Source of the DNA: a virus
Strand: one strand, 5' to 3'
Length of the DNA: 34,008 nucleotides
Virus record (IMG/VR): IMGVR_UViG_3300026533_000001
Span: 1-34,008 of that record
The notes below the pieces were generated by a model, which saw only the letters and a list, made by a program, of their open reading frames with translations, was not told the DNA's origin and did no database searches. Below are positions 22,538 through 34,008 of this stretch, piece after piece; position 1 is the first letter of the stretch, and the number at the start of each line of letters is the position of its first letter. A program made the position numbers and the translations under genes.

Positions 22538-23991
22538 CTCTTAAATGCCCTCCCTCCTGAAAATTTCTGGCCACTCTTTGCAAGTGCTCTGAACTTAGAG
22601 CTGCTGAGTAGTTCTTTACCACCACCCATTCCATTCACAAGGTACTCAAGAGCATTACACACATGAGAGTACTTACCTTTATCTGGCTTTTCAGCATACT
22701 TCTCTCCAGATACATTTACTCTTTTGAACTGATACCCACCATTTAATCCCTTTCGTAAGTTCTTACACCTTGATGAGATCATAAGTGCAGGCTGCCCATG
22801 TATGAGAGTGTTAAACATGGCCTTAACCGCTTCAACAACTATATCTGGTTTATTTGTAGGTACTAACTTGCAGTTGAGGCCTAGCTTGTTCCATACTTTG
22901 AGCTGAGTATGATCTGTAACTTGACCACGAGATCCTGCAGCTATATCTAACCAGATCATGTGCCTGTACTGTCCGTAATCTGCCTGCATCATACTCTTAA
23001 CATACTTTCCAAACTCCATAGCACCAACATCATCAGATACGATCTCATCAAACACCACGAGTCTACCCATAGCATCCACTTGACCAAATACTACTGCTGA
23101 AGTTCTACCATTCTCACCACCACAAATAAGAGCGATACTCACATCTGGAGGCCTGATCTCTTTCTCATCAATACAATGCACACGATCATTGTACTCAGGA
23201 TAAACAGGTTTACCTGTCTGAAGTGGTATGAACTTAACCTTAGCCATTACATCCACCCAATCTTGAGGCTTACCAAGCATATACTCACCATAGTATTCAT
23301 CAGGTAAGTTCTCAAGGTTTTCAGCATCTGGATTAATAGATCCATCATCTAGCATAGCAGGAGGCTGCAGGAAAAGTTTATGGTTAGATGGTATGTTTTC
23401 TAAGAAGAGTTTATATACCCAATGCTCTTGATCAAAAGCATTACTATCAGCCCAAGCACATGGATGAGTAGCCTTAACACCCATAGTTGGAGATGGATAA
23501 CGACCTAAACGAGATGTGACATTATACAGGGCGGCCTGTGGTAACTCTCGCAGCTCATTCAAGTAAGCATAAGTGATCTCAAGTGAAAGCAGTTTCTTCA
23601 TGTCCTGCGGCTTATCTAGTGCACGAAATAGGATCTCAGCATGGACTTTGTCCTCCTCATCTTCATAGACTGCTGAGAGGTTACTCCAATTCATAACAAG
23701 ATCATCACCAAACCACTCAACAAAACTCTTGATCGTAGTATCTTTAAGCTCAACTGTAGTGTTACGGATCACAACTGTGCGAGTTCTTTTCCATCCGTTC
23801 TTATCTGGCTCTTGCAGGTGGATGAGATAGTACCACTTCATGATGCTGCCAAGAGTTTTCCCTGATCCAATAGCACCGATGATGAGAGTTACAAATGTGA
23901 AGTCCTGTAAGAAGTTATTTACTGTAGGAGATGGATTATAGATCATATCATCTGGCTGCGGCTCATACATGGAGAACTCAGGTTTTGACAT
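22534..23991 (-). CDS. Terminase large subunit (packaging ATPase and nuclease)
   Basis: 485 aa. The Walker A motif is GAIGSGKT at residues 39-46. YAYLNE at 141-146 is the Walker B-like strand followed by the catalytic Glu. In the C-terminal nuclease, VVFDEI at 312-317 and WLDIAAGSRG (D349) give acidic residues expected of the RNase H-like fold; the first acidic residue is less clear, being within CGGENGR rather than a usual D-x-G. It starts as TAATG, overlapping the small-subunit stop. The protein cuts concatemeric or circular DNA and drives it into the prohead through the portal. Headful versus defined-end packaging cannot be told from the sequence. Confidence 0.92.
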   Translation of the reverse strand: MSKPEFSMYEPQPDDMIYNPSPTVNNFLQDFTFVTLIIGAIGSGKTLGSIMKWYYLIHLQEPDKNGWKRTRTVVIRNTTVELKDTTIKSFVEWFGDDLVMNWSNLSAVYEDEEDKVHAEILFRALDKPQDMKKLLSLEITYAYLNELRELPQAALYNVTSRLGRYPSPTMGVKATHPCAWADSNAFDQEHWVYKLFLENIPSNHKLFLQPPAMLDDGSINPDAENLENLPDEYYGEYMLGKPQDWVDVMAKVKFIPLQTGKPVYPEYNDRVHCIDEKEIRPPDVSIALICGGENGRTSAVVFGQVDAMGRLVVFDEIVSDDVGAMEFGKYVKSMMQADYGQYRHMIWLDIAAGSRGQVTDHTQLKVWNKLGLNCKLVPTNKPDIVVEAVKAMFNTLIHGQPALMISSRCKNLRKGLNGGYQFKRVNVSGEKYAEKPDKGKYSHVCNALEYLVNGMGGGKELLSSSKFRALAKSGQKFSGGRAFKR

Positions 23992-24537: not shown

Positions 24538-24876
24538 TTAGTTAGTTCTAAAAGCTACAAGATCAGCAAGATCAATTTCATTACCATCATAGCTACTTAG
24601 TGAGTGGCCACGACCATCATATCTAGCATCTTTTTTCCATGACTCACTATCAAAGTAATTCTGGTATGCTTCATTTAACTCTGGTAAAATACACTCATCT
24701 ATGTAACTATCTAATGACTGATCCCATGCCTCATCTGCCTCTTCTTCAGTACCTATAGCATACTCACCATTCTCAGTATTTATAACTGTTAAACCATAGT
24801 GCTCATAACTCTCAACTGTAAATCTTCCTAGTTCTTCTATAATTTCTTTAGCCTGTGTGTATGTAAAATCTTCCAT
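24538..24876 (-). CDS. Very acidic small protein of unknown function
   Basis: 112 aa with about 28 Asp/Glu and only 7 Lys/Arg. The charged core contains GTEEEADEAWDQSLDSYIDE, then DARYDGRGHSLSSYDGNE near the C-terminus. The latter motif, with Gly-Arg-Gly-His-Ser-Leu, is one I recall in many phage hypothetical proteins, without a known role. The acidity could fit a DNA mimic such as an antirestriction or anti-CRISPR protein, but many acidic phage proteins are not mimics. It follows the holin-like gene by 4 bases and ends at a terminator, so the two form a short operon under operator-bearing promoter A. I would not name it beyond that. Confidence 0.6.
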   Translation of the reverse strand: MEDFTYTQAKEIIEELGRFTVESYEHYGLTVINTENGEYAIGTEEEADEAWDQSLDSYIDECILPELNEAYQNYFDSESWKKDARYDGRGHSLSSYDGNEIDLADLVAFRTN

Positions 24877-24880
24877 AATA

Positions 24881-25051
24881 TTATCCTTTGATTACTTTTC
24901 TAATTCTTGCAGCTTCAGCTCTATTATGAGCATCAACTGAAACTATAAACCCTGATAGAGCACCTAAAGCAAGTGGTAAAAAACCATAAGCTAAAAACAA
25001 AACAAAAAACACTATCGAAACGATGAAGCTAATAAGTTCTAAAGTTTTCAT
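24881..25051 (-). CDS. Small two-helix membrane protein, holin-like
   Basis: 56 aa. ATG 25051 follows AAGGAGTAAGAG. Residues 6-22 (LISFIVSIVFFVLFLAY) and 24-39 (FLPLALGALSGFIVSV) are two hydrophobic segments separated by a short Gly turn; the last 17 residues are charged and basic (DAHNRAEAARIRKVIKG). This resembles class II or pinholin-sized holins, and the gene leads an operon ahead of the packaging genes, where T7 has its holin (17.5). However, it is driven by the shared operator-bearing promoter A, not placed in the late block, and no endolysin is adjacent. A small membrane protein with another role in the lysogen is possible. Confidence 0.6.
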   Translation of the reverse strand: MKTLELISFIVSIVFFVLFLAYGFLPLALGALSGFIVSVDAHNRAEAARIRKVIKG

Positions 25052-25079: not shown

Positions 25080-25155
25080 AGTATATCTAATTGTCTGACA
25101 ACAAGTCAAGCTTTTTGTGTAGAAGTTGTGTAAGTTGTGTGTAAGTAGTGTGTAT
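25080..25155 (-). promoter_or_regulatory. Promoter/operator module A
   Basis: Reading the minus strand: boxes of the TTACACAACT type (25155-25115), then -35 TTGACT (25109-25104), an 18-bp spacer holding the perfect palindrome TTGTCAGACAA (25101-25091), and -10 TATACT (25085-25080). Transcription would start near 25073, before the holin-like gene. The -35 and box array overlap the last codons and stop of the upstream gene. Two other copies occur at 27373-27437 and 29592-29655. Confidence 0.75.
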
Positions 25156-26035
25156 ATATAGGCTTATAGAGATAGATCATACTCTTTAAGAGCTGCAGCA
25201 TCTTATCAACTGAGATACTTTTATAGATGATATTATTTTTAGATCTTAGTTCTTGCTGCTGCACCTGTAGTTCCAAGAGCATACCCCTTAGTGCATTAGT
25301 TTCCTCACCATCTTTAGCATTAAAATATGATCTGTATTTATCCATGATATTGATTTTTAGTAGGTATTTCCTGATCGTTTTTCTATCCATCTTTAAGCTT
25401 TTAGCTAATGAGCTTATACTCTCACCTGTACTGAATAGTTTTATGTGTCTACTGAACTGATCAAACTTAGATCGTGATCTCTTATAGCTTTGATGCTTTG
25501 CATTTTCTGCTCTGTTCATATCAGTAAGCTTCACTCTTCCTGCAGTACCACCATCATCATAGTATCTCTGTATGGCCTTAGCTTTGTATTGTACTTTTTT
25601 CCACTCTTTAGTGAACTGTGCACCATATTGTATTAGATCATCATACATATCTTCTATGCCTTGAGCATATAGCTTATGAGAGTAGATCCTAAGCTCATCA
25701 AAGATCACATCTTTATTTTCCATGCTGAGGCCTATATGCTTACTAATTTTCTTGTTTCTTCTTTTAAGATCATCAAAATCACATAACTTATAACTCACAC
25801 CTGTTGTCTCGTGGTGAGAGTGATAAACTATCTTCATTAACTGAGAGTTCATATTTATTGTAAGAGAGTTTGCTATGTCTCGCAGGTACTCTTTTCCTGC
25901 TGCAGTAGTAAAGAAACCATCTATGTTAAATCGCATAATATTAGTTTCTCTGAAGTTGTTATTTGATGGTGGTGGTACATCTTCAAAAACAGAAGTGTCT
26001 ATTTTATCATGATAGTATATTTCTATATATGCCAA
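25106..26035 (-). CDS. Helix-turn-helix protein, possible regulator or replication initiator (TTG start)
   Basis: 309 aa from TTG 26035, which has AAAGGAA about 8 bases ahead; the next ATG would drop over 30 residues. Residues about 205-228 (GESISSLAKSLKMDRKTIRK) are a resolvase/Hin-type helix-turn-helix. The N-terminal 140 residues (MRFNIDGFFTTAAGKEYLRD, IVYHSHHETTGVSYKLCDFD) match no family I recognise. The C-terminus (YTHYLHTTYTTSTQKA) is encoded by the box array of promoter module A, so gene end and operator overlap. It sits between two copies of TACACA-type boxes and an inverted repeat near its own start (26048-26065), so it may bind these boxes as a plasmid-type initiator or repressor. 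That is inference. Confidence 0.55.
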   Translation of the reverse strand: MAYIEIYYHDKIDTSVFEDVPPPSNNNFRETNIMRFNIDGFFTTAAGKEYLRDIANSLTINMNSQLMKIVYHSHHETTGVSYKLCDFDDLKRRNKKISKHIGLSMENKDVIFDELRIYSHKLYAQGIEDMYDDLIQYGAQFTKEWKKVQYKAKAIQRYYDDGGTAGRVKLTDMNRAENAKHQSYKRSRSKFDQFSRHIKLFSTGESISSLAKSLKMDRKTIRKYLLKINIMDKYRSYFNAKDGEETNALRGMLLELQVQQQELRSKNNIIYKSISVDKMLQLLKSMIYLYKPIYTHYLHTTYTTSTQKA

Positions 26036-26224
26036 ATTTGTAGTTCCTTTTGTGTATTCACAAAAAGAGAGAAGAAGAGGTTAAGTAACTTATAAGTGCA
26101 TTTCAAGTAAAATACACACAAGTTACACAACATAGCTTGAGACTATTTGTGTGAGGTCTTAGTCGCTTGCAGGCACTAAGACATTGAATTAGGTAACTTT
26201 ATCTAATTTTAACTTAAAATAAAA
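26036..26224. promoter_or_regulatory. Intergenic region with inverted repeat, box array and hairpin
   Basis: No gene seen. It holds an inverted repeat TTTTGTG-TATT-CACAAAA at 26048-26065, just ahead of the Shine-Dalgarno of the TTG-start gene; a TACACACAAGTTACACAAC segment on the plus strand at 26113-26131, which is an inverted, near-identical copy of the box array in modules A and B; and a hairpin at 26156-26182. The layout suggests autoregulation of the helix-turn-helix protein. Confidence 0.5.
26156..26182. terminator. Hairpin, possible terminator after the AcrVA2-like gene
   Basis: A perfect 8-bp stem GTCTTAGT/ACTAAGAC encloses CGCTTGCAGGC, which can pair partly. It lies 43 bases after the stop at 26225. 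There is no T-run on either strand, so termination strength is uncertain. A second stem AATTAG/CTAATT lies at about 26188-26209. Confidence 0.4.
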
Positions 26225-27091
26225 TCACACCTTAACTATTTTCCCTAAAACTTTTGATCCAGATCCTTTCCACATAGCATCAATCCAAATGCTCTTATAT
26301 GTCGGTGCACTGCGACTTCCATAGGGTTGTCTCCTGAAGTGTCCTTTTTGCATCCATGTTTTATCACTAGATCCACGAGAACTTATATTGTTTTTTCCTG
26401 ATAGTGTGTATGATGGCTGTGATAGATAAACAGTAGTAGTCACATGATCTGGAATAGATCTCTTTTTACTTCCTTTGTTTGCAACTTTATGAAGCAGCAC
26501 TTTATCTGTTACTTTTTGAAACATACTTGTAAACATTATAATACTTATACATTTGTAAATAGTCTCTCTCATATCTTTACTCTCAGTTCCAAGAACACGA
26601 TCTATCATCTGCTGCATATCAAAAACTGTTAAGATCGCATCTATCTCATCCTCTATGTTTTTTCCATCATCTAGCTTCATCTGGTGATAACGAGTTCCAC
26701 CATCTTCAACTGTCTCAAATGTAAAAACTTTACTCTCACCATCAAAAAACACATGAACATACTCATATCCACTCCATGCAGCATTTGTAAGATCTATTGT
26801 AAATGCTTTGTATGGCATCTTCAGATCACTCACATCCATCTTCTTGATCGTTTTCTCACTCATGGACTCATTCCAATGCTCTGAGTCCTTGAGCTTTATG
26901 AGCACACAACCATTTTCCTGCACCTGTAGAAGTGTAGCGATCCTGTTTGAGTAAACACTGCACTCACTCTCAGTTCTCCCTGCACTAATAAATGTAGGCA
27001 TGATCAGACTTTTAAACTCTTGAGTACCTGTAACCATCATTTTTTTCATCATGTCACGATCTGACTGTGCTCTATATATAGGGTGTTTCAT
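26225..27091 (-). CDS. AcrVA2-like protein (C-terminal GHFRxQ...WIxxxxKG domain)
   Basis: 288 aa. Residues 249-276 contain KGHFRRQPYG and KSIWIDAMWKG, matching the C-terminal pattern G-H-W/F-x-x-Q-x-x-G followed by a W-x-x-x-x-x-x-G element found in the broad AcrVA2-like family of phage and plasmid proteins. An upstream MPYKAFTIDL, then YVHVFFDGE, resembles the N-terminal half of that family. AcrVA2 itself blocks Cas12a by acting on its nascent chain and mRNA; most homologues occur without Cas12a and have unknown targets, so an anti-CRISPR role is not shown here. The start overlaps the previous stop as ATGA and the gene is expressed from module B. The similarity is from memory of motifs, without an alignment. 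Confidence 0.5.
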   Translation of the reverse strand: MKHPIYRAQSDRDMMKKMMVTGTQEFKSLIMPTFISAGRTESECSVYSNRIATLLQVQENGCVLIKLKDSEHWNESMSEKTIKKMDVSDLKMPYKAFTIDLTNAAWSGYEYVHVFFDGESKVFTFETVEDGGTRYHQMKLDDGKNIEDEIDAILTVFDMQQMIDRVLGTESKDMRETIYKCISIIMFTSMFQKVTDKVLLHKVANKGSKKRSIPDHVTTTVYLSQPSYTLSGKNNISSRGSSDKTWMQKGHFRRQPYGSRSAPTYKSIWIDAMWKGSGSKVLGKIVKV

Positions 27092-27345
27092 GATATAAGC
27101 ACCCCCACTTCCATTTTATGAGAGATGTTACACTCTAAATGATTTCGTATAAAAGTATAACTCATCTCAGTATCTTCTGAGAGCTGCAGTGCAGCATCAG
27201 CTAAATGAAACCTAGTGAGATCATCTCTACCCTGTTCTTTTAAAATTAACTTCGCCTGATACACAAGATTTTCAGTGCTTTGCTCTATAAGCTCATCAAT
27301 CTCCTGTCTTGCTTTGATTAACTGTTCTAAATTAAATATTACCAT
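27088..27345 (-). CDS. Small helical protein, first gene of the module B operon
   Basis: 85 aa from ATG 27345, with AGGAG 7 bases ahead (CAGGAGTTTGAGATG). It appears as two helices, the first amphipathic (LEQLIKARQEIDELIEQ), with no motif of known family. Its TGA overlaps the next ATG, so it is coupled to the AcrVA2-like gene and may be its partner or regulator. It is the first gene after promoter module B. Confidence 0.6.
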   Translation of the reverse strand: MVIFNLEQLIKARQEIDELIEQSTENLVYQAKLILKEQGRDDLTRFHLADAALQLSEDTEMSYTFIRNHLECNISHKMEVGVLIS

Positions 27346-27372
27346 CTCAAACTCCTGTGTTTTATTTCAAAC

Positions 27373-27437
27373 AGTATATCAAGTTGTCTGACAATATGTC
27401 AAGGGTTTTGTGTAAAAGTTGTGTAAGTTGTGTGTAA
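27373..27437 (-). promoter_or_regulatory. Promoter/operator module B
   Basis: Minus strand: TACACACAACTTACACAACT boxes (27437-27403), -35 TTGACA (27402-27397, a perfect consensus), an 18-bp spacer containing the palindrome TTGTCAGACAA (27394-27384), and -10 TATACT (27378-27373). It drives the 85-aa/AcrVA2-like operon. It is the closest of the three copies to consensus, so the best to test for repressor binding. Confidence 0.8.
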
Positions 27438-27443
27438 GAAGCA

Positions 27444-27465
27444 CACACTATGTAAGTATAGTGTG
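27444..27465 (-). terminator. Hairpin ahead of promoter module B
   Basis: A perfect 8-bp stem CACACTAT/ATAGTGTG with a 6-base loop lies 10 bases after the stop at 27476 and just before the box array. On the minus strand it is followed by TGCTTCTT. It insulates the upstream unit from module B. Confidence 0.55.
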
Positions 27466-27475
27466 CTTTGTAGGG

Positions 27476-27781
27476 TTATCGCTGTCTGTTTCCATATCCA
27501 CCATTAGCTGAGAGATCATAAGCAGGCTGAGGCTGCTGCTGATTAGTGTTATAATTGTTTTGTTGAGGCTGCTGCCCTTGCTGCTGATCTGCTTCAAAGA
27601 GTTGAAAAGATCCATCCCACCATCCACCTGTAGGAAGTGCATCTACATCTCCAAAAGTTTTCATCTGACCATCGTTTCCTGCCATCTCTACTGCAGATCC
27701 TATCTTTACCCATTTTGTTTTAGTCTGTCCAGACTGCTTATCCAAGTAAGGTTTTGCAACCATCATGTTAAATTTTTTCAT
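27476..27781 (-). CDS. Small protein with Gln/Asn-rich tail, possibly single-strand DNA-binding
   Basis: 101 aa. Residues 1-60 (MMVAKPYLDKQSGQTKTKWV, KIGSAVE, LPTGGWWDGSFQLFE) form an OB-like beta pattern seen in a class of small conserved proteins encoded beside recombination genes in mobile elements. The tail (residues about 65-101) is rich in Gln, Asn and Pro, like the disordered tails of SSB proteins, but lacks the acidic SSB tip, ending in NGGYGNRQR. Being in the RecT operon, it could hold single strands for annealing. This is a context-based guess. A hairpin follows its stop. Confidence 0.45.
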   Translation of the reverse strand: MKKFNMMVAKPYLDKQSGQTKTKWVKIGSAVEMAGNDGQMKTFGDVDALPTGGWWDGSFQLFEADQQQGQQPQQNNYNTNQQQPQPAYDLSANGGYGNRQR

Positions 27782-27971
27782 CGTGTACCTTTTTGATTTT
27801 ATTTTCTATCTCTTGCTGCAGCTGATCAGCTGCTTCTTCTATGCCAAAAATACTATCAGACGATATAGCATCACACCCTATATCGTGTAGTCTTTCGCTA
27901 AATCTTTTAAGATGCTTTACACACCTCTCAAGCTCCATGACACACTCTGCATACTCTTCACATACACCCAT
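27768..27971 (-). CDS. Small helical protein
   Basis: 67 aa (MGVCEEYAECVMELERCVKH and LKRFSERLHDIGCDAISSDS). Four cysteines, mostly paired on one helix (residues 4, 10, 17) and one further on, but not in a classic zinc pattern. It starts as TAATG on the preceding stop and overlaps the next start by 14 bases. Function unknown; part of the RecT operon. Confidence 0.55.
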   Translation of the reverse strand: MGVCEEYAECVMELERCVKHLKRFSERLHDIGCDAISSDSIFGIEEAADQLQQEIENKIKKVHDEKI

Positions 27972-28090
27972 TATTTATCTCCAAGATCCTTAAATGCTGC
28001 ATAGATCTTAGCAGCCTGTGATACTGTACACTTAGGATATTTCTTTACAATTATATCTAAAATTTTACTCTGATCATTTTGCTTTGCCAT
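27971..28090 (-). CDS. Very small protein (39 aa)
   Basis: MAKQNDQSKILDIIVKKYPK then CTVSQAAKIYAAFKDLGDK. The end (TVSQAAKIYAAFKDLG) has a helix-turn-helix-like look. It lies 3 bases after the previous stop, and its stop overlaps the following ATG as TAATG. Coupling on both sides supports its being real. No family recognised. Confidence 0.5.
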   Translation of the reverse strand: MAKQNDQSKILDIIVKKYPKCTVSQAAKIYAAFKDLGDK

Positions 28091-28093
28091 CAT

Positions 28094-28288
28094 CTACCCC
28101 TTAGTAACTGCTTCAGTTATTTCACCTTCATCAAAGGCTGCTATATATCTATTAAATGCAGCTCTCTGAACATCAGATCGTTTGATCTTCAGTCCTGTAG
28201 CAGCACTTAACTCTTCAGCGATCTCTTCTAGCTTGATCTTCACTGATGCGATCACTCTCGTATCGCAGTTTACTTTACCTGTACTCAT
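28094..28288 (-). CDS. Small DNA-binding-type protein
   Basis: 64 aa; ATG 28288 follows AAGGAG. The sequence RVIASVKIKLEEIAEELSAA, then GLKIKRSDVQRAAFNRYIAA, fits a ribbon-helix-helix-like pattern (strand then two helices ending in a conserved-type hydrophobic helix). Proteins of this size in phage early operons are commonly regulators. It is a candidate ligand for the TTGTCAGACAA operators, but no direct evidence is available. Confidence 0.45.
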   Translation of the reverse strand: MSTGKVNCDTRVIASVKIKLEEIAEELSAATGLKIKRSDVQRAAFNRYIAAFDEGEITEAVTKG

Positions 28289-28298
28289 TCATAACTCC

Positions 28299-28820
28299 TT
28301 AGTTTATATAATATCCTGCTTGTCTAGTAATAATATCCTCAAAATTAATTGTACTAAAAGATAAATTATCGTATTCAAAACTAATATTTTTGCTTAGAAT
28401 ACAATTACTTAAATCAACAAATGAACTATCTCCATAATGAGCAGGTATTTTTAAAAAATATGGACTAGCAATAGATGATGATGATGATACTGAGTCAATA
28501 ATGAATAATCGACATTCAACTCCAAAACAATCTAGTGCCCAAGATAGTTTCTTTATTTTTTTTGCTCTCATAGCACTTATCCTGTCTGTAACTGTTATCT
28601 CTATAAAATCAACAATCCTTAATCCTTTTTCATCCTGTAAAAAATTATATAAATTTGGAACATAATCACCTAAAATATCCAATAAATATTTAGCTTCACT
28701 TCCGAGATCACTATCGGCAATATTAATATATTTAATAAGGTTTGATTTAAACTGATACTTCTTAAATTCATATTTGTTCTTTAAGTTTATTGTAACTTCT
28801 CTTCCTAATTCACTTATCAT
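28299..28820 (-). CDS. Hypothetical protein, AT-rich insert in the RecT operon
   Basis: 173 aa. It is more AT-rich than its neighbours, using many AAT, AAA and ATA codons, and has a run of five Ser codons (VSSSSSIAS) encoded by a TCA/TCT repeat. No motif, membrane segment or signal peptide is recognised. The N-terminal half is charged-helical and the C-terminal half beta-like (YFLKIPAHYGDSSFVDLSNC). ATG 28820 lies 10 bases after the previous stop with a weak ribosome site. Composition and lack of overlap suggest a moron-type gene added to the operon, perhaps for defence or exclusion. Function is unknown. Confidence 0.5.
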   Translation of the reverse strand: MISELGREVTINLKNKYEFKKYQFKSNLIKYINIADSDLGSEAKYLLDILGDYVPNLYNFLQDEKGLRIVDFIEITVTDRISAMRAKKIKKLSWALDCFGVECRLFIIDSVSSSSSIASPYFLKIPAHYGDSSFVDLSNCILSKNISFEYDNLSFSTINFEDIITRQAGYYIN

Positions 28821-28830
28821 CCTATAACTC

Positions 28831-28974
28831 TTATATCTTCAATCTGAAGTAGTCTCTAAATATTTTGTTCCATTTAGCTTCAATCTTCTTTCTAGCATCT
28901 TCATACCCTGATCCGACTATAGCCTCTCTAAGTAGTGCACTCTTTCTAAATGGATGCTCTATGTTTGTTGTCAT
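28831..28974 (-). CDS. Small basic protein after RecT
   Basis: 47 aa (MTTNIEHPFRKSALLREAIV, then GSGYEDARKKIEAKWNKIF). ATG 28974 overlaps the RecT TGA as ATGA, so translation is coupled. It is Arg/Lys-rich. It might be an accessory factor for annealing or a fragment of a larger family. No family recognised. Confidence 0.55.
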   Translation of the reverse strand: MTTNIEHPFRKSALLREAIVGSGYEDARKKIEAKWNKIFRDYFRLKI

Positions 28975-29564
28975 TCTACAACTCCTACATCTATGATCCC
29001 TGCATCTTCAACTACTTGAGTTGCGATGTTCGTTAAACCTAAGTAAATATCACTCACATAATCTTTTGCAAACAAAGTAGCAGCACGAGCTTTGAGCATT
29101 ACCTCTGGCATCACTCTCCACTTACTACCTTTTTTAGTATATAAACCCTCCTGTTTTGCTATCCAAGTTGAGTACCATGAGCCATAAACCATCTCACCAT
29201 CGTTACCCATCATGTAAACTCTACAGTGCTGCTCACCCTCTTCATCTTTCATCTCATACTTTATGAGACTTGCAAACCTACCAGATCCATGTATGATCGC
29301 CCTGTAGAACTCAGCACTAAAACCAACATTACCATGCACTACATAGATGTGGTTAGCTATAGTCATCGCAGGTATGCCTGTCTTATTAGAGAGATCTATA
29401 GCAACAACTGCATTAGCTATGTTACCTCTCCAATCTCCTGAGATCACACTGCTCATAGTAAGCAGCTTTCCCATTCTCTGAGCAGCTTCAAAGCCCTCTT
29501 TACTTTCAAAAGGTGCAGTCTGTCTCATGAGCTGCATCTCCTGTGCTTTTTTTCTTAATGACAT
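28971..29564 (-). CDS. RecT-family single-strand annealing protein
   Basis: 197 aa. Residues 149-177 (KWRVMPEVMLKARAATLFAK, then DYVSDIYLGL) are the strongest hallmark of RecT/Bet-type proteins: W-x-x-x-P-x-x-M-L-x-K-x-A-x-x, then a downstream G. The central GNVGFSAEFYRAIIHGSGRF also fits the family core. These proteins pair complementary single strands for recombination and can circularise or repair phage DNA. Length is shorter than E. coli RecT (269 aa) but typical of phage versions. No RecE-like exonuclease is seen nearby, so it would rely on host nuclease or act on replication forks. ATG 29564 follows AAGGACTTGAT, and module C lies upstream. Confidence 0.85.
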   Translation of the reverse strand: MSLRKKAQEMQLMRQTAPFESKEGFEAAQRMGKLLTMSSVISGDWRGNIANAVVAIDLSNKTGIPAMTIANHIYVVHGNVGFSAEFYRAIIHGSGRFASLIKYEMKDEEGEQHCRVYMMGNDGEMVYGSWYSTWIAKQEGLYTKKGSKWRVMPEVMLKARAATLFAKDYVSDIYLGLTNIATQVVEDAGIIDVGVVE

Positions 29565-29591
29565 ATCAAGTCCTTAACTTTAAGATAGCAA

Positions 29592-29655
29592 AGTATATCA
29601 TGTTGTCTGACATTAATCAAGGTTTTGTGTAAAAGTTGTGTAATATGTGTGTATT
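29592..29655 (-). promoter_or_regulatory. Promoter/operator module C
   Basis: Minus strand: TACACACATATTACACAAC boxes, then -35 TTGATT (29620-29615), a 17-bp spacer with TGTCAGACA (29612-29604), and -10 TATACT (29597-29592). It differs from A and B only by weaker -35 and loss of one base on one operator flank. It drives the RecT operon. A half-site TTGTCAG lies at 29693-29687. Confidence 0.75.
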
Positions 29656-29723
29656 GTAGTTCTTAATATTATCAGGTATAATTACACTGACAATATCAAG
29701 TTGAAGCTCTTAGGAACTTCTAG

Positions 29724-30182: not shown

Positions 30183-30727
30183 AACCCATCCTTTATTTTC
30201 TTACCCTCTATGATCATATTGTTTTTGAGTATAAACTTCTTACCTGCAAATGCAGATCTTCTCAAACTCACACCTGTATGAGGCTCAAGCTCTTTGATAT
30301 ATATAGATAAAATATCATCACCTGTATCTTCAAGTTCCCTGTACTCATCCGATGGTATGTGATCGCTAGTTGTAGCAGCCTGCATATCCTCTATAAGTTT
30401 CTCAGATATGTTACCATACTTTTTAAGAGGTGCAGCATAATATCCATAAATGAGTGCACAAAAATCTATCCCTATAATAGGTGATCTTGCACCATGAGCT
30501 TCAGTAGCCCTCACCCATAGTAACTTTTCAAACTCAGATGTAAATGCACCCTGCACCCTATCTCTCTTTGCTTCACCAATGATCAGCTTATGCAGTCGCT
30601 GCATCAACTTCTCAAGATGCTTACTTCTCTCATGAGGATGAAAGTTCTTTAAAAATCGCATCATAGTATGACCTGTGATCACTGCCTGTTGTCTTGATGT
30701 AAGTTTTGACTCTGGATCTTTAGTCAT
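30179..30727 (-). CDS. Hypothetical early protein
   Basis: 182 aa. It starts as ATGA on the stop of the ribbon-helix-helix gene. The N-terminal 100 residues are helical and basic (RHERSKHLEKL-like pattern, KLIIGEAKRDRVQG), the rest mixed. One IPSDEYRELEDTGDDILSIY region is acidic. No motif recognised. The operon RHH, this gene, then two small genes may be an early takeover unit or lysogeny module. Annotated only as unknown. Confidence 0.5.
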   Translation of the reverse strand: MTKDPESKLTSRQQAVITGHTMMRFLKNFHPHERSKHLEKLMQRLHKLIIGEAKRDRVQGAFTSEFEKLLWVRATEAHGARSPIIGIDFCALIYGYYAAPLKKYGNISEKLIEDMQAATTSDHIPSDEYRELEDTGDDILSIYIKELEPHTGVSLRRSAFAGKKFILKNNMIIEGKKIKDGF

Positions 30728-30885
30728 ATCTTCATATCCAACTGAGCATTTTCACCAACATATCTTTTTATAAACTTTCTAAGTTCTTGAGCAGCACTAC
30801 TCTCATTTATTTTTGAAACCTTTTTAAATCTATCCCATAGTTGAGAGTCAATATCAAAGTTTGCTTTAGTTCTATCTTCTGCCAT
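30724..30885 (-). CDS. Arc-sized ribbon-helix-helix repressor candidate
   Basis: 53 aa, the length of P22 Arc. The sequence MAEDRTKANFDIDSQLWDRF, then KKVSKINESSAAQELRKFIK and RYV, has the pattern of a beta strand (KANFDID), then two helices, the second with a conserved-type hydrophobic face (AAQELRKFIKRYV). ATG 30885 follows TTAAAGGAGG, the strongest Shine-Dalgarno in the window; the surrounding AACCT/AGGTT can pair and might control access to it. A TATAAT -10 lies upstream at 30918-30913. As the first gene of the early operon, it is the leading candidate for the repressor binding TTGTCAGACAA, or for autoregulation of its own promoter. Confidence 0.65.
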   Translation of the reverse strand: MAEDRTKANFDIDSQLWDRFKKVSKINESSAAQELRKFIKRYVGENAQLDMKI

Positions 30886-31107
30886 AAAAAACCTCCTTTA
30901 AGGTTAGCCGATATTATACCATCATTTCACCCATATTACTAAATGGTTTACATAATGCTAATTCTCTATCATTGCTTTATTTTAGGGTTTTGGTATTTTT
31001 TGTTTGCTTTAAGTTTAAGCTAGAAAACTTAAACTTTCAATTTGTGGAGTTTGTGAAGTGTTGTGAAACTTAAACTTAAAGTTTTAAGTTAGTTTATTTG
31101 TGTAAGG
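30886..31107. promoter_or_regulatory. AT-rich intergenic region with promoter and repeats
   Basis: 222 bases without a gene. From the minus strand: a TATAAT -10 at 30918-30913 for the ribbon-helix-helix gene (start of transcription near 30906) with no good -35; and in 31011-31088 several repeats described separately. Very AT-rich. A candidate for replication origin or partition site because it joins repeats, AT-rich DNA and the partition cassette. Confidence 0.5.
31011..31088. repeat. Cluster of inverted and tandem repeats near the partition genes
   Basis: Three copies of CTTAAACTT: at 31028-31036, 31069-31077, and inverted (AAGTTTAAG) at 31011-31019; a degenerate AAGTTTTAAG at 31079-31088. 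Between them are three 9-mers TTTGTGGAG, TTTGTGAAG and TGTTGTGAA in tandem (31041-31067). The first two CTTAAACTT copies form a 9-bp hairpin. Possible binding array for ParG or a Rep protein. Confidence 0.6.
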
Positions 31108-31254
31108 TTATAGCCATTCTATAAACCCACCATCTTTTTTAGCTTTCTTTTTTCTCTTGTTCATCTTGCGAAAATATCTGAACATATCTATCAGCAGCCA
31201 TAATAAAACCAAGATCAAGAACATGATTAAAAATAAGACTGCTGCTATGTTCAT
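31108..31254 (-). CDS. Small single-pass membrane protein in partition operon
   Basis: 48 aa (MNIAAVLFLIMFLILVLLWL, LIDMFRYFRKMNKRKKKAKK, then DGGFIEWL). A hydrophobic helix of about 21 residues is followed by a strongly basic tail. ATG overlaps the ParG-like stop as TAATG, so it is translationally coupled to the partition genes. Its layout resembles type I toxin peptides or small holins, and it may aid plasmid maintenance. No antitoxin RNA could be identified. Function is unknown. Confidence 0.55.
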   Translation of the reverse strand: MNIAAVLFLIMFLILVLLWLLIDMFRYFRKMNKRKKKAKKDGGFIEWL

Positions 31255-31508
31255 TATAACCCTCTTGCTCTTTTAATATCCATTAATAAAATTCTTATTG
31301 CTTTACTAAAATTCATTTTTTCACCTGTAGGGAAACTAGCCATGATTACTTCAGCGATTTTAATAATTTCTTTTTTATCTTTCATTGATAAATTAATATT
31401 CATTCTTATTAATTTATCGTCTTTTATGCTTGCTTCAAGATCAGCAGTATGAACACGAGTCATATCTGCAGTGCCCTTGCTTGCTGCTATCATCTCTTTC
31501 TTAGTCAT
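31254..31508 (-). CDS. ParG-like centromere-binding protein
   Basis: 84 aa, near the length of ParG (76 aa). The N-terminal 35 residues are flexible-looking (TADMTRVHTADLEASI), and the rest follows the ribbon-helix-helix pattern: DDKLIRMNINLSMKDKKEII, then MNFSKAIRILLMDIKRARGL. ParG-type proteins use the C-terminal dimer to bind the partition site and repress their own operon, and the N-terminal arm to stimulate the ParA ATPase. The gene overlaps ParA by 8 bases (ATG within its last codons), a usual arrangement in such cassettes. Exact family is not verified. Confidence 0.65.
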   Translation of the reverse strand: MTKKEMIAASKGTADMTRVHTADLEASIKDDKLIRMNINLSMKDKKEIIKIAEVIMASFPTGEKMNFSKAIRILLMDIKRARGL

Positions 31509-32163
31509 TGTTTAACTCCTGTACTACTGCATCTACGAGTCTAACAACTGCAGCAGCAGGTTTTGACTCAGGAGCAAACTCACCTATACCTAAACCCATC
31601 CCATGACTATCTGAAAATATAGTGTAGTGTGGAACAGTTGGCAGCAGCTTGTAGCCCTCATCTGTTATGTACTCAAGCTCTCTCTCGATCTTAGGTCGTT
31701 TAGTCGCTGAGTGTGTGTTATTTGGTACAAACTGAACATTTAACTCAGATCCCAGATCCTTGAGTACCTTGAGCTTATCCATATAGTGAGTGTTCCCATC
31801 CATATCTTGAGTGCTCAGACTTGTAGGTACAACTATGATGTCACTGTAGATCATAGCAGCAGTAGCTATATCATCTATAAATCCACCCATATCTACTATC
31901 ATGTAGTCCATTTCTTCACTCATATACTTTCCACTCTCCAGAACTGTCTCCATATCATTTGAGCTTACTATAGTTGTGATCTCTATTCTGCTAAGATCAA
32001 AAGAGTGGACTCTTCTGTTACAGAATTTAAGAGAAGTTTGTGAAGTATCATGATCTATGAGAAGTACTTTTGAGTGTGCTGCTAAAGATGCAGCTATGTT
32101 TGTGGCAATGGTACTTTTTCCAACACCACCCTTATTGTTTGCAATAACTATTATTTTTGACAT
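31501..32163 (-). CDS. parA: ParA-type partition ATPase
   Basis: 220 aa from ATG 32163 (MSKIIVIANNKGGVGKSTIA), with AAGG 6 bases ahead. An upstream in-frame start at 32235 would add 24 residues encoded by operator repeats, so it is rejected. The deviant Walker A KGGVGKST is at residues 11-18, LLIDHDT follows at about 38, and YMIVDMGG is the next conserved aspartate element. The length and absence of an N-terminal DNA-binding domain put it with small type Ib ParA proteins, which position plasmids with a ribbon-helix-helix partner. With the ParG-like gene it forms a complete partition cassette, which is unexpected in a lytic podovirus and suggests plasmid-type maintenance. Confidence 0.9.
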   Translation of the reverse strand: MSKIIVIANNKGGVGKSTIATNIAASLAAHSKVLLIDHDTSQTSLKFCNRRVHSFDLSRIEITTIVSSNDMETVLESGKYMSEEMDYMIVDMGGFIDDIATAAMIYSDIIVVPTSLSTQDMDGNTHYMDKLKVLKDLGSELNVQFVPNNTHSATKRPKIERELEYITDEGYKLLPTVPHYTIFSDSHGMGLGIGEFAPESKPAAAVVRLVDAVVQELNND

Positions 32164-32189
32164 ATCAAATCCTTGTGTAATATTTGCAC

Positions 32190-32245
32190 ACATTATACAC
32201 AAATAATACACAAATAATACACACTTTGTAAACAATTCGTGTGTA
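32190..32245 (-). promoter_or_regulatory. Direct-repeat array and promoter upstream of parA
   Basis: On the plus strand TACACAAATAA occurs twice in tandem (32196-32206, 32207-32217), followed by TACACAC (32218-32224), which pairs with GTGTGTA at 32239-32245 to form an inverted repeat. The minus-strand -10 TATAAT lies at 32197-32192 within the array. TTATACACA at 32193-32201 equals an E. coli-type DnaA box but may simply be part of the repeat. Overlap of repeats and promoter is typical of ParG-type autoregulated partition sites. Confidence 0.65.
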
Positions 32246-32369
32246 AAGTTATATTATTTAAAACTATTTCTTACGAGGAGAGTAATCAAAGTATACACTA
32301 CAGTTTACATCTATACTACTAATATAATTACTTCTGCTTTTCTCATATAATTTCCTTAGTTTTTAATAC
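32246..32369 (-). other. Gene-poor region between chaperone and parA arrays
   Basis: About 120 bases. A good Shine-Dalgarno (CTAAGGAAATTATATG) leads to an 11-codon frame (MRKAEVIILVV, 32346-32311). An adjacent frame is open for about 30 codons (with SSIDVNCSVYFDYSPRKK) but has no start. It may be a frameshifted remnant of a small gene. No terminator is obvious. Confidence 0.3.
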
Positions 32370-33369: not shown

Positions 33370-34008
33370 TTACCATTCTATTATTGCATCAGTTATCAGG
33401 TTTGCACCATTTAGAGTCTTTATTGTACCATCTTGATTAATAGCTAGCCTATTGGTTGTAGTACCACTAATATTTTTAGTCTCAAGTATTAAATTCTCAT
33501 TAGCTTCATTCACATGAACAGAACCCATAAGAGAATCATCAACTCTCCTAAAATGTATAATTGTATCACTTGCTGATGGTGCAGCTCTAAGATTAATAAT
33601 TCCTCTATTTCCACCACTACCATCACCTATAAAAAGCTCGCTTTTTAAGTGACCACCATTGGTGGATAAAAACTTAGCATCAGACTCATTCTTCGTATAA
33701 GCATCAACTCCTGATGGTAATGTAGCCCATATAGCCACACCACTTGCTGAGTATTTTAAGTACTGATTAGCAGCTCCACCTGTAGGAACATGAATATTTC
33801 CTGCAGTAGTAGGATGAACATATTTATTTGCACCTACTGCTACACCTGCAAGTTTAGTCTCATCTGCAGTAGGATATGTTCTTTTAGCTGTGTTCGCTGT
33901 AATTTCAGCAGCTTGAGCAGTCGTTATTCCTACCTTAGCTGTATTTAAAGCAACTGCTGTTTTTAATCCATACTTAGCATCAGACTCTGTTTTTGTATAA
34001 GCATCAAC
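33370..34008 (-). CDS. Repeat-containing tail fibre protein, C-terminal part (runs off the window end)
   Basis: The minus frame is open from base 34008 and ends at the stop at 33370. It begins VDAYTKTESDAKYGLK, repeats the whole 100-residue unit seen at 448-149, then diverges after VDAYTKNESDAKFL into a distinct C-terminus. That part contains HLKSELFIGDGSGGNRGIINL, a beta-rich fibre-type sequence, and ends TDAIIEW. An internal ATG at 33738 could be mistaken for a start, but it lies in the middle of the repeat unit (VAIWATLPSG) and has no Shine-Dalgarno sequence. The open frame upstream matches the frame at 1-1126 exactly, so the two pieces are one gene on a circular or permuted molecule. The next gene (32726-33349) is another fibre component. 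Confidence 0.8.
   Translation of the reverse strand, partial: VDAYTKTESDAKYGLKTAVALNTAKVGITTAQAAEITANTAKRTYPTADETKLAGVAVGANKYVHPTTAGNIHVPTGGAANQYLKYSASGVAIWATLPSGVDAYTKNESDAKFLSTNGGHLKSELFIGDGSGGNRGIINLRAAPSASDTIIHFRRVDDSLMGSVHVNEANENLILETKNISGTTTNRLAINQDGTIKTLNGANLITDAIIEW
33701..34008. repeat. Direct repeat at the window end, overlapping the window start
   Basis: Bases 33701-34008 are identical to 141-448, and the last 148 bases (33861-34008) are also identical to 1-148. The match to base 1 is what expected overlapping ends of a circular or terminally redundant assembly look like. Because it falls in a tandem repeat, it could instead mean that assembly stopped in a repeat and that additional copies are missing. 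Joining on 148 bases preserves the fibre reading frame and gives a molecule of 33,860 bp. Confidence 0.85.

Follow-up and report, generated by a model that had tools for sequence, protein, structure and literature searches.

Partition-type iterons in the repeated early promoters of an uncultured phage: a proposed dual-input regulatory module

The 34,008-nucleotide (nt) stretch of viral DNA analysed here (the window; IMG/VR record IMGVR_UViG_3300026533_000001) carries three near-identical sigma70-type promoters on its minus strand, S1 (25080-25159), S2 (27373-27441) and S3 (29592-29658), each combining a palindrome lodged between the -35 and -10 hexamers with contiguous 11-bp repeats upstream, and the same repeats form an array ahead of a partition gene, parA. 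This regulatory module is real and conserved. From the sequence, we consider it probable that S1-S3 are copies of one dual-input, partition-linked early promoter module, and the arrangement suggests that the DNA-partition system of this virus also helps to switch its early genes.

Aligned on the -10, the three promoters share one architecture, in which the palindrome is centred at -23 and is preceded by three to four contiguous iterons, the nearest unit being centred near -44. The S1 core (25080-25109) comprises TTGACT (25104-25109), the palindrome TTGTCAGACAA (25091-25101) and TATACT (25080-25085); the S2 core (27373-27402) comprises TTGACA, the palindrome at 27384-27394 and TATACT; and the S3 core (29592-29620), ahead of recT, comprises TTGATT, a palindrome at 29603-29613 and TATACT. 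The original prediction of three minus-strand segments with TTGA-type -35 and TATACT -10 hexamers separated by 18, 18 and 17 bp describes them correctly. Its claim of a palindrome in every spacer holds for S1 and S2, whereas the S3 copy is imperfect (ATGTCAGACAA). S1 and S2 are 88% identical across 69 nt. Within the early region S2 scores highest as a sigma70-type promoter (11/12), although promoter-like matches overall are no commoner than in shuffled sequence. The predicted start lies approximately 21-22 nt from the ATG at each site, with a purine-rich, Shine-Dalgarno-like stretch between, which marks S1-S3 as tight operon-head promoters. Exact TGTCNGACA occurs four times in the window against 0.175 expected, and three of the four copies fall within the S1-S3 promoters; when two mismatches are allowed there is no enrichment in the window (12 seen, 17.8 expected). 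The palindrome signal resides in the exact and near-exact copies and their context. A MerR-type reading, with the palindrome in an overlong spacer as is typical of MerR promoters, is unlikely because spacers of 17-18 bp are near normal. Just upstream of the S3 array there is also a strong inverted repeat (29660-29705; stem of about 17 bp, z -7 including its surroundings), which is operator- or terminator-like in appearance.

The boxes upstream of each -35, whose presence had been predicted, prove to be not loose repeats but contiguous 11-bp iterons with a TACACA/TGTGTA core, held in strict register. On the minus strand, S1 has four units (25116-25159) with exact cores at 25116, 25127, 25138 and 25149, and this array overlaps the last codons at the 3' end of a 309-aa open reading frame (ORF); S2 has three (27409-27441; cores at 27409, 27420 and 27431), as does S3 (29626-29658; cores at 29626, 29637 and 29648). 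Ten same-strand core pairs 11 bp apart occur in the window, compared with none in 100 Markov sequences, and runs of at least two exact cores at this step number five against a chance mean of 0.02. With relaxed matching, runs of at least three units are found at four places, S1, S2, S3 and parA, where 0.065 would be expected. S1-S3 are three modules as palindrome-bearing sites, as originally described, but not the whole set of arrays: two units without a palindrome lie on the plus strand upstream of the 309-aa ORF (26113-26134), and seven contiguous units lie directly upstream of parA (32174-32250), a putative centromere and autoregulatory operator. The parA array, the longest of the four, spans the parA promoter match TTTACA-18-TATTAT (32232-32203), as expected of an autoregulatory site, and ranks first in the window at lag 11 (position 32187; 27/33, a score reached by 0/60 shuffles).

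Conservation was assessed in two diverged IMG/VR relatives, L001 (RecT and TerL with approximately 80% amino acid identity) and L003 (TerL 81%); a near relative in the same database, L002, lacks the region. The alignment on the -10 holds and the modules recur, four further copies in L001 and L003 bringing the number to seven across three phages. Each of the two relatives has one module after ssb or a Q-rich gene and a second ahead of the genes that precede terS. The spacing from palindrome centre to -10 is fixed in six of the seven, with a leader of some 13-22 nt to the next ATG; the remaining module, L001-B, is degenerate and its -10 ambiguous. The first box is centred between -41.5 and -45.5 in all seven and further boxes follow every 11 bp; their orientation differs from one phage to another, but the register does not. 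Set against the fixed position of the palindrome relative to the -10, the variation of about 3 bp in the distance from palindrome to box (19.5-22.5) supports binding by two different proteins. Moreover, a matrix built from the five L001/L003 sites only ranks S1, S2 and S3 top in the window at 45.1, 32.5 and 20.5 bits, the next match scoring 2.9. No match to the exact module pattern was found in IMG/VR outside L001 and L003, and a megablast search of phages with the early region returned none.

In a blastn comparison of the window with L001, the main DNA matches are the modules and stretches of recT, the 64-aa gene, terS and terL, the cargo genes remaining unmatched; the core, palindrome and 11-bp register are conserved in diverged phages while the flanks differ. 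Since the cargo genes behind the modules differ from phage to phage, the modules behave as portable promoters. A 92-aa acidic cargo gene stands behind module A in L001 and behind module B in L003. The block of homology between the two begins at the palindrome, which suggests that the modules act as recombination joints. At L003-B (L003:1914-1970) the promoter-palindrome unit is tandemly duplicated with a 29-bp step, giving two potential starts.

The link to partition runs through two adjacent genes on the minus strand. The first (31501-32163) encodes a 220-aa ParA, ParF/MipZ-like, which is a small deviant-Walker partition-type ATPase (phrog_164, 2.3e-35; ParF and Soj among its PDB matches; NF041546 ParA_partition at 5e-26, under the curated 180-bit cut-off of that model). 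The second (31254-31508) encodes an 84-aa protein that by inspection and synteny looks like a ribbon-helix-helix (RHH) protein and is proposed to bind the iterons. Among relatives of this ParA, the gene after parA matches an RHH-type model in Campylobacter and Zymomonas plasmids and in phages KS14, MAR and Ahp2, above the curated cut-off in KS14 only (RHH_1), just under it for the ParG match of pZM36 (0.00038), whose gene is annotated as Arc-type RHH, and more weakly in the others; no RHH-type model matched the corresponding gene of Vibrio phage K303. Repeats ahead of parA are of 11 bp in K303 (strong) and KS14 (marginal), 8 bp in MAR and pZM36, and 22/11 bp in A. towneri. In K303 (OZ195676.1), an independent phage, parA is immediately preceded by five contiguous 11-bp repeats (23621-23665), and no other part of that genome scores better at lag 11. 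This synteny with the relatives of ParA makes the 84-aa ORF the likely iteron binder. The original list of repressor candidates omitted it because the boxes had not been recognised as iterons of the parA promoter; from that list, the 53-aa protein retains a weak Arc-like match.

We propose a model in which the 84-aa protein, made just after ParA, would bind the iterons in dimeric form, with one dimer to each 11-bp unit. At the parA array this would provide both autorepression and a centromere, whereas at S1-S3 the bound protein would probably modulate transcription from upstream of the -35, by activation, co-repression or bridging, and these shorter arrays may possibly serve as extra satellite centromere sites. 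A second small phage regulator, either the 64-aa or the 53-aa protein, would bind the spacer palindrome and repress by excluding RNA polymerase. In this way, the plasmid or partition state of the phage DNA would be coupled to the expression of recombination and accessory genes.

Several observations weigh against this model. No RHH model matches the 84-aa protein and its single-sequence fold is poor, its RHH-like character being read from the appearance of the sequence and the position of the gene. The 11-bp array of the K303 parA is not found at other promoters of that phage, and Sodalis phiSG1, Ahp2, Tunturi_5 and the Campylobacter plasmid show no repeat ahead of parA above shuffles. The palindrome is not present at parA. 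Furthermore, the L001 and L003 contigs end before any par locus, and as a result the partition genes and the modules are seen together in one genome only.

The most serious alternative, which we nevertheless regard as unlikely, is a classical phage repressor regulon, in which a single palindrome-bound repressor controls all three promoters and the boxes are upstream promoter or activator elements for a host factor, with no tie to partition. The fixed spacing of the palindrome to the -10 fits this view, and the nearest box, at about -44, is where an activator or the C-terminal domain of the RNA polymerase alpha subunit could act. However, boxes in the same 11-bp register build the longest array at parA, where the palindrome is missing, and orientation flips with the register kept suit a symmetric dimer on iterons over an A/T-rich upstream (UP) element. 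The original prediction of a lysogenic repressor network survives in part: a co-regulated promoter set with an in-spacer operator is upheld by the fixed spacing, but neither an integrase nor a repressor of the CI type turned up among the proteins searched, which represent part of the ORFs, and all recognised genes lie on one strand. It should be added that parA is present in the window and that the record may be incomplete.

A second alternative, for which we see little room, is that the modules are mainly dispersed centromeres (satellite parS) that lie at promoters by happenstance, any effect on transcription being secondary. Contiguous iterons are indeed the form taken by parS of pSM19035, and the N15 plasmid prophage has four inverted-repeat centromere sites (PMC7205306). 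Conversely, apart from the one at parA, every array of at least three units accompanies both a promoter, at a nearly constant distance, and a palindrome; three or four units are also few, as full activation of ParA in pSM19035 requires four contiguous repeats (PMC9499535). Slightly less credible again is recent duplication of a promoter region that spreads cargo genes by recombination with no special regulation, for although the S1/S2 identity, the tandem unit in L003 and the displaced 92-aa gene would all fit it, core, palindrome and register persist in diverged phages with differing flanks, and parA has the iterons but not the promoter core.

Behind S3 the first gene encodes a RecT-like annealing protein (28971-29564, minus strand; phrog_561, 1.3e-29), in agreement with the original assignment. 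The same operon encodes the 64-aa candidate palindrome regulator (28094-28288, minus strand), which is conserved in L001 (48%); AlphaFold2 folds of this and the 84-aa protein compared with the PDB named no family. S2 precedes 85-aa and 288-aa genes of no known family (26225-27345, minus strand), and S1 precedes 56-aa and 112-aa genes (24538-25051, minus strand), the 112-aa product having a weak ArdA/anti-restriction match (E 0.003, under the cut-off). The labels 'holin-like' and 'AcrVA2-like' first attached to these operons were not supported in the tests made against Pfam, PHROGs, NCBIfam or PDB sequences, which included a search for AcrVA2 similarity in the 288-aa gene. The second palindrome candidate is the 53-aa Arc-like RHH protein (30724-30885, minus strand; phrog_3180 'Arc-like repressor' at a weak 0.0017, phrog_19878 at 1.8e-7). 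Between its gene and a 48-aa gene lies an AT-rich stretch (30990-31100) with AACTTAAACTT-type and TTTGTGAAG-type repeats, a possible origin or further operator. Searches of IMG/VR and of phages returned no relatives of the 309-aa helix-turn-helix ORF.

Other searches bear on the form of the genome and its host. An exact 148-nt terminal repeat (1-148 and 33861-34008) has a third copy at 301-448 inside a tail-fibre gene, and the tail-fibre ORF runs off both ends of the window; together these features point to a genome that is probably circular or permuted and was interrupted inside the fibre repeats. Close relatives of the window ParA were not found in IMG/VR, and TerL gave two distant matches only in plasmids, which leaves a near phage-plasmid relative unsupported. 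Scans of genome contigs with RecT and TerL found no match and no prophage copy, and for this reason no host is assigned. L001 and L003 additionally share a non-coding stretch of approximately 660 nt (L001:3435-4120 and L003:1109-1800; 76% identity over 618 nt) that blastn does not find in the window. It folds far better than its shuffles (z -5.4 and -4.95), with 26 of 158 consensus pairs changed on both sides, and is matched neither in Rfam up to E 1 nor in 50,697 phage records, making it a candidate large structured phage RNA.

If the model is correct, a single DNA sequence would tie prophage or plasmid segregation to the switching of early genes, providing a clear, testable operator code. 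The modules would also serve as sequence tags by which rapidly changing accessory genes, perhaps including anti-defence genes, could be located in this uncultured group of phages. A broader formulation, which we put forward tentatively and as the less probable outcome, would make the partition protein a global early-gene regulator: centromere-type 11-bp iterons would be carried in portable modules, each with its palindromic operator. One and the same protein would then govern both plasmid maintenance and the expression of cassettes for recombination and accessory (possibly anti-defence) functions, and the modules would form the joints at which cassettes are swapped.

The closest parallel is the regulon of omega, the ParB of plasmid pSM19035, whose iteron targets overlap several promoters (PMC9499535, PMC5016525). 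Both systems have a small partition protein, of RHH type in omega and here a candidate that looks RHH-like by sequence and position, and contiguous short iterons, direct and inverted, over the promoters of par and other genes. The omega units are of 7 bp (WATCACW) rather than 11 bp, the setting is a plasmid rather than a phage, there is no separate in-spacer palindrome, and the targets are copy-number and par genes rather than recombination and accessory genes. ParG/ParF of TP228 and other type Ib loci likewise place a small RHH-like gene after a small parA with repeats upstream, but in TP228 AT-rich spacers separate the repeats, whereas here the 11-bp units are contiguous and are found again at other promoters. 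N15 shares the presence of several partition sites (IR1-4) on a phage genome, yet it uses SopB, an F-type ParB, and inverted repeats instead of short iterons in promoter modules. Arc-type operators lie between -35 and -10 and are bound by a small RHH repressor; the likeness extends to the position of the operator and to the candidate repressor, and is not one of compared operator sequences. In archaeal rudiviruses a shared early-promoter sequence controlled by Aca8 marks anti-defence genes (PMC11065993). There too, one conserved regulatory sequence is repeated before many early, fast-changing genes, and its use as a tag would be paralleled here, but the promoters are archaeal, the regulator is a winged helix-turn-helix protein and there are no partition iterons. 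Taken together, it seems rather likely that the window holds a variant form of the known RHH-iteron partition regulons, here in a phage.

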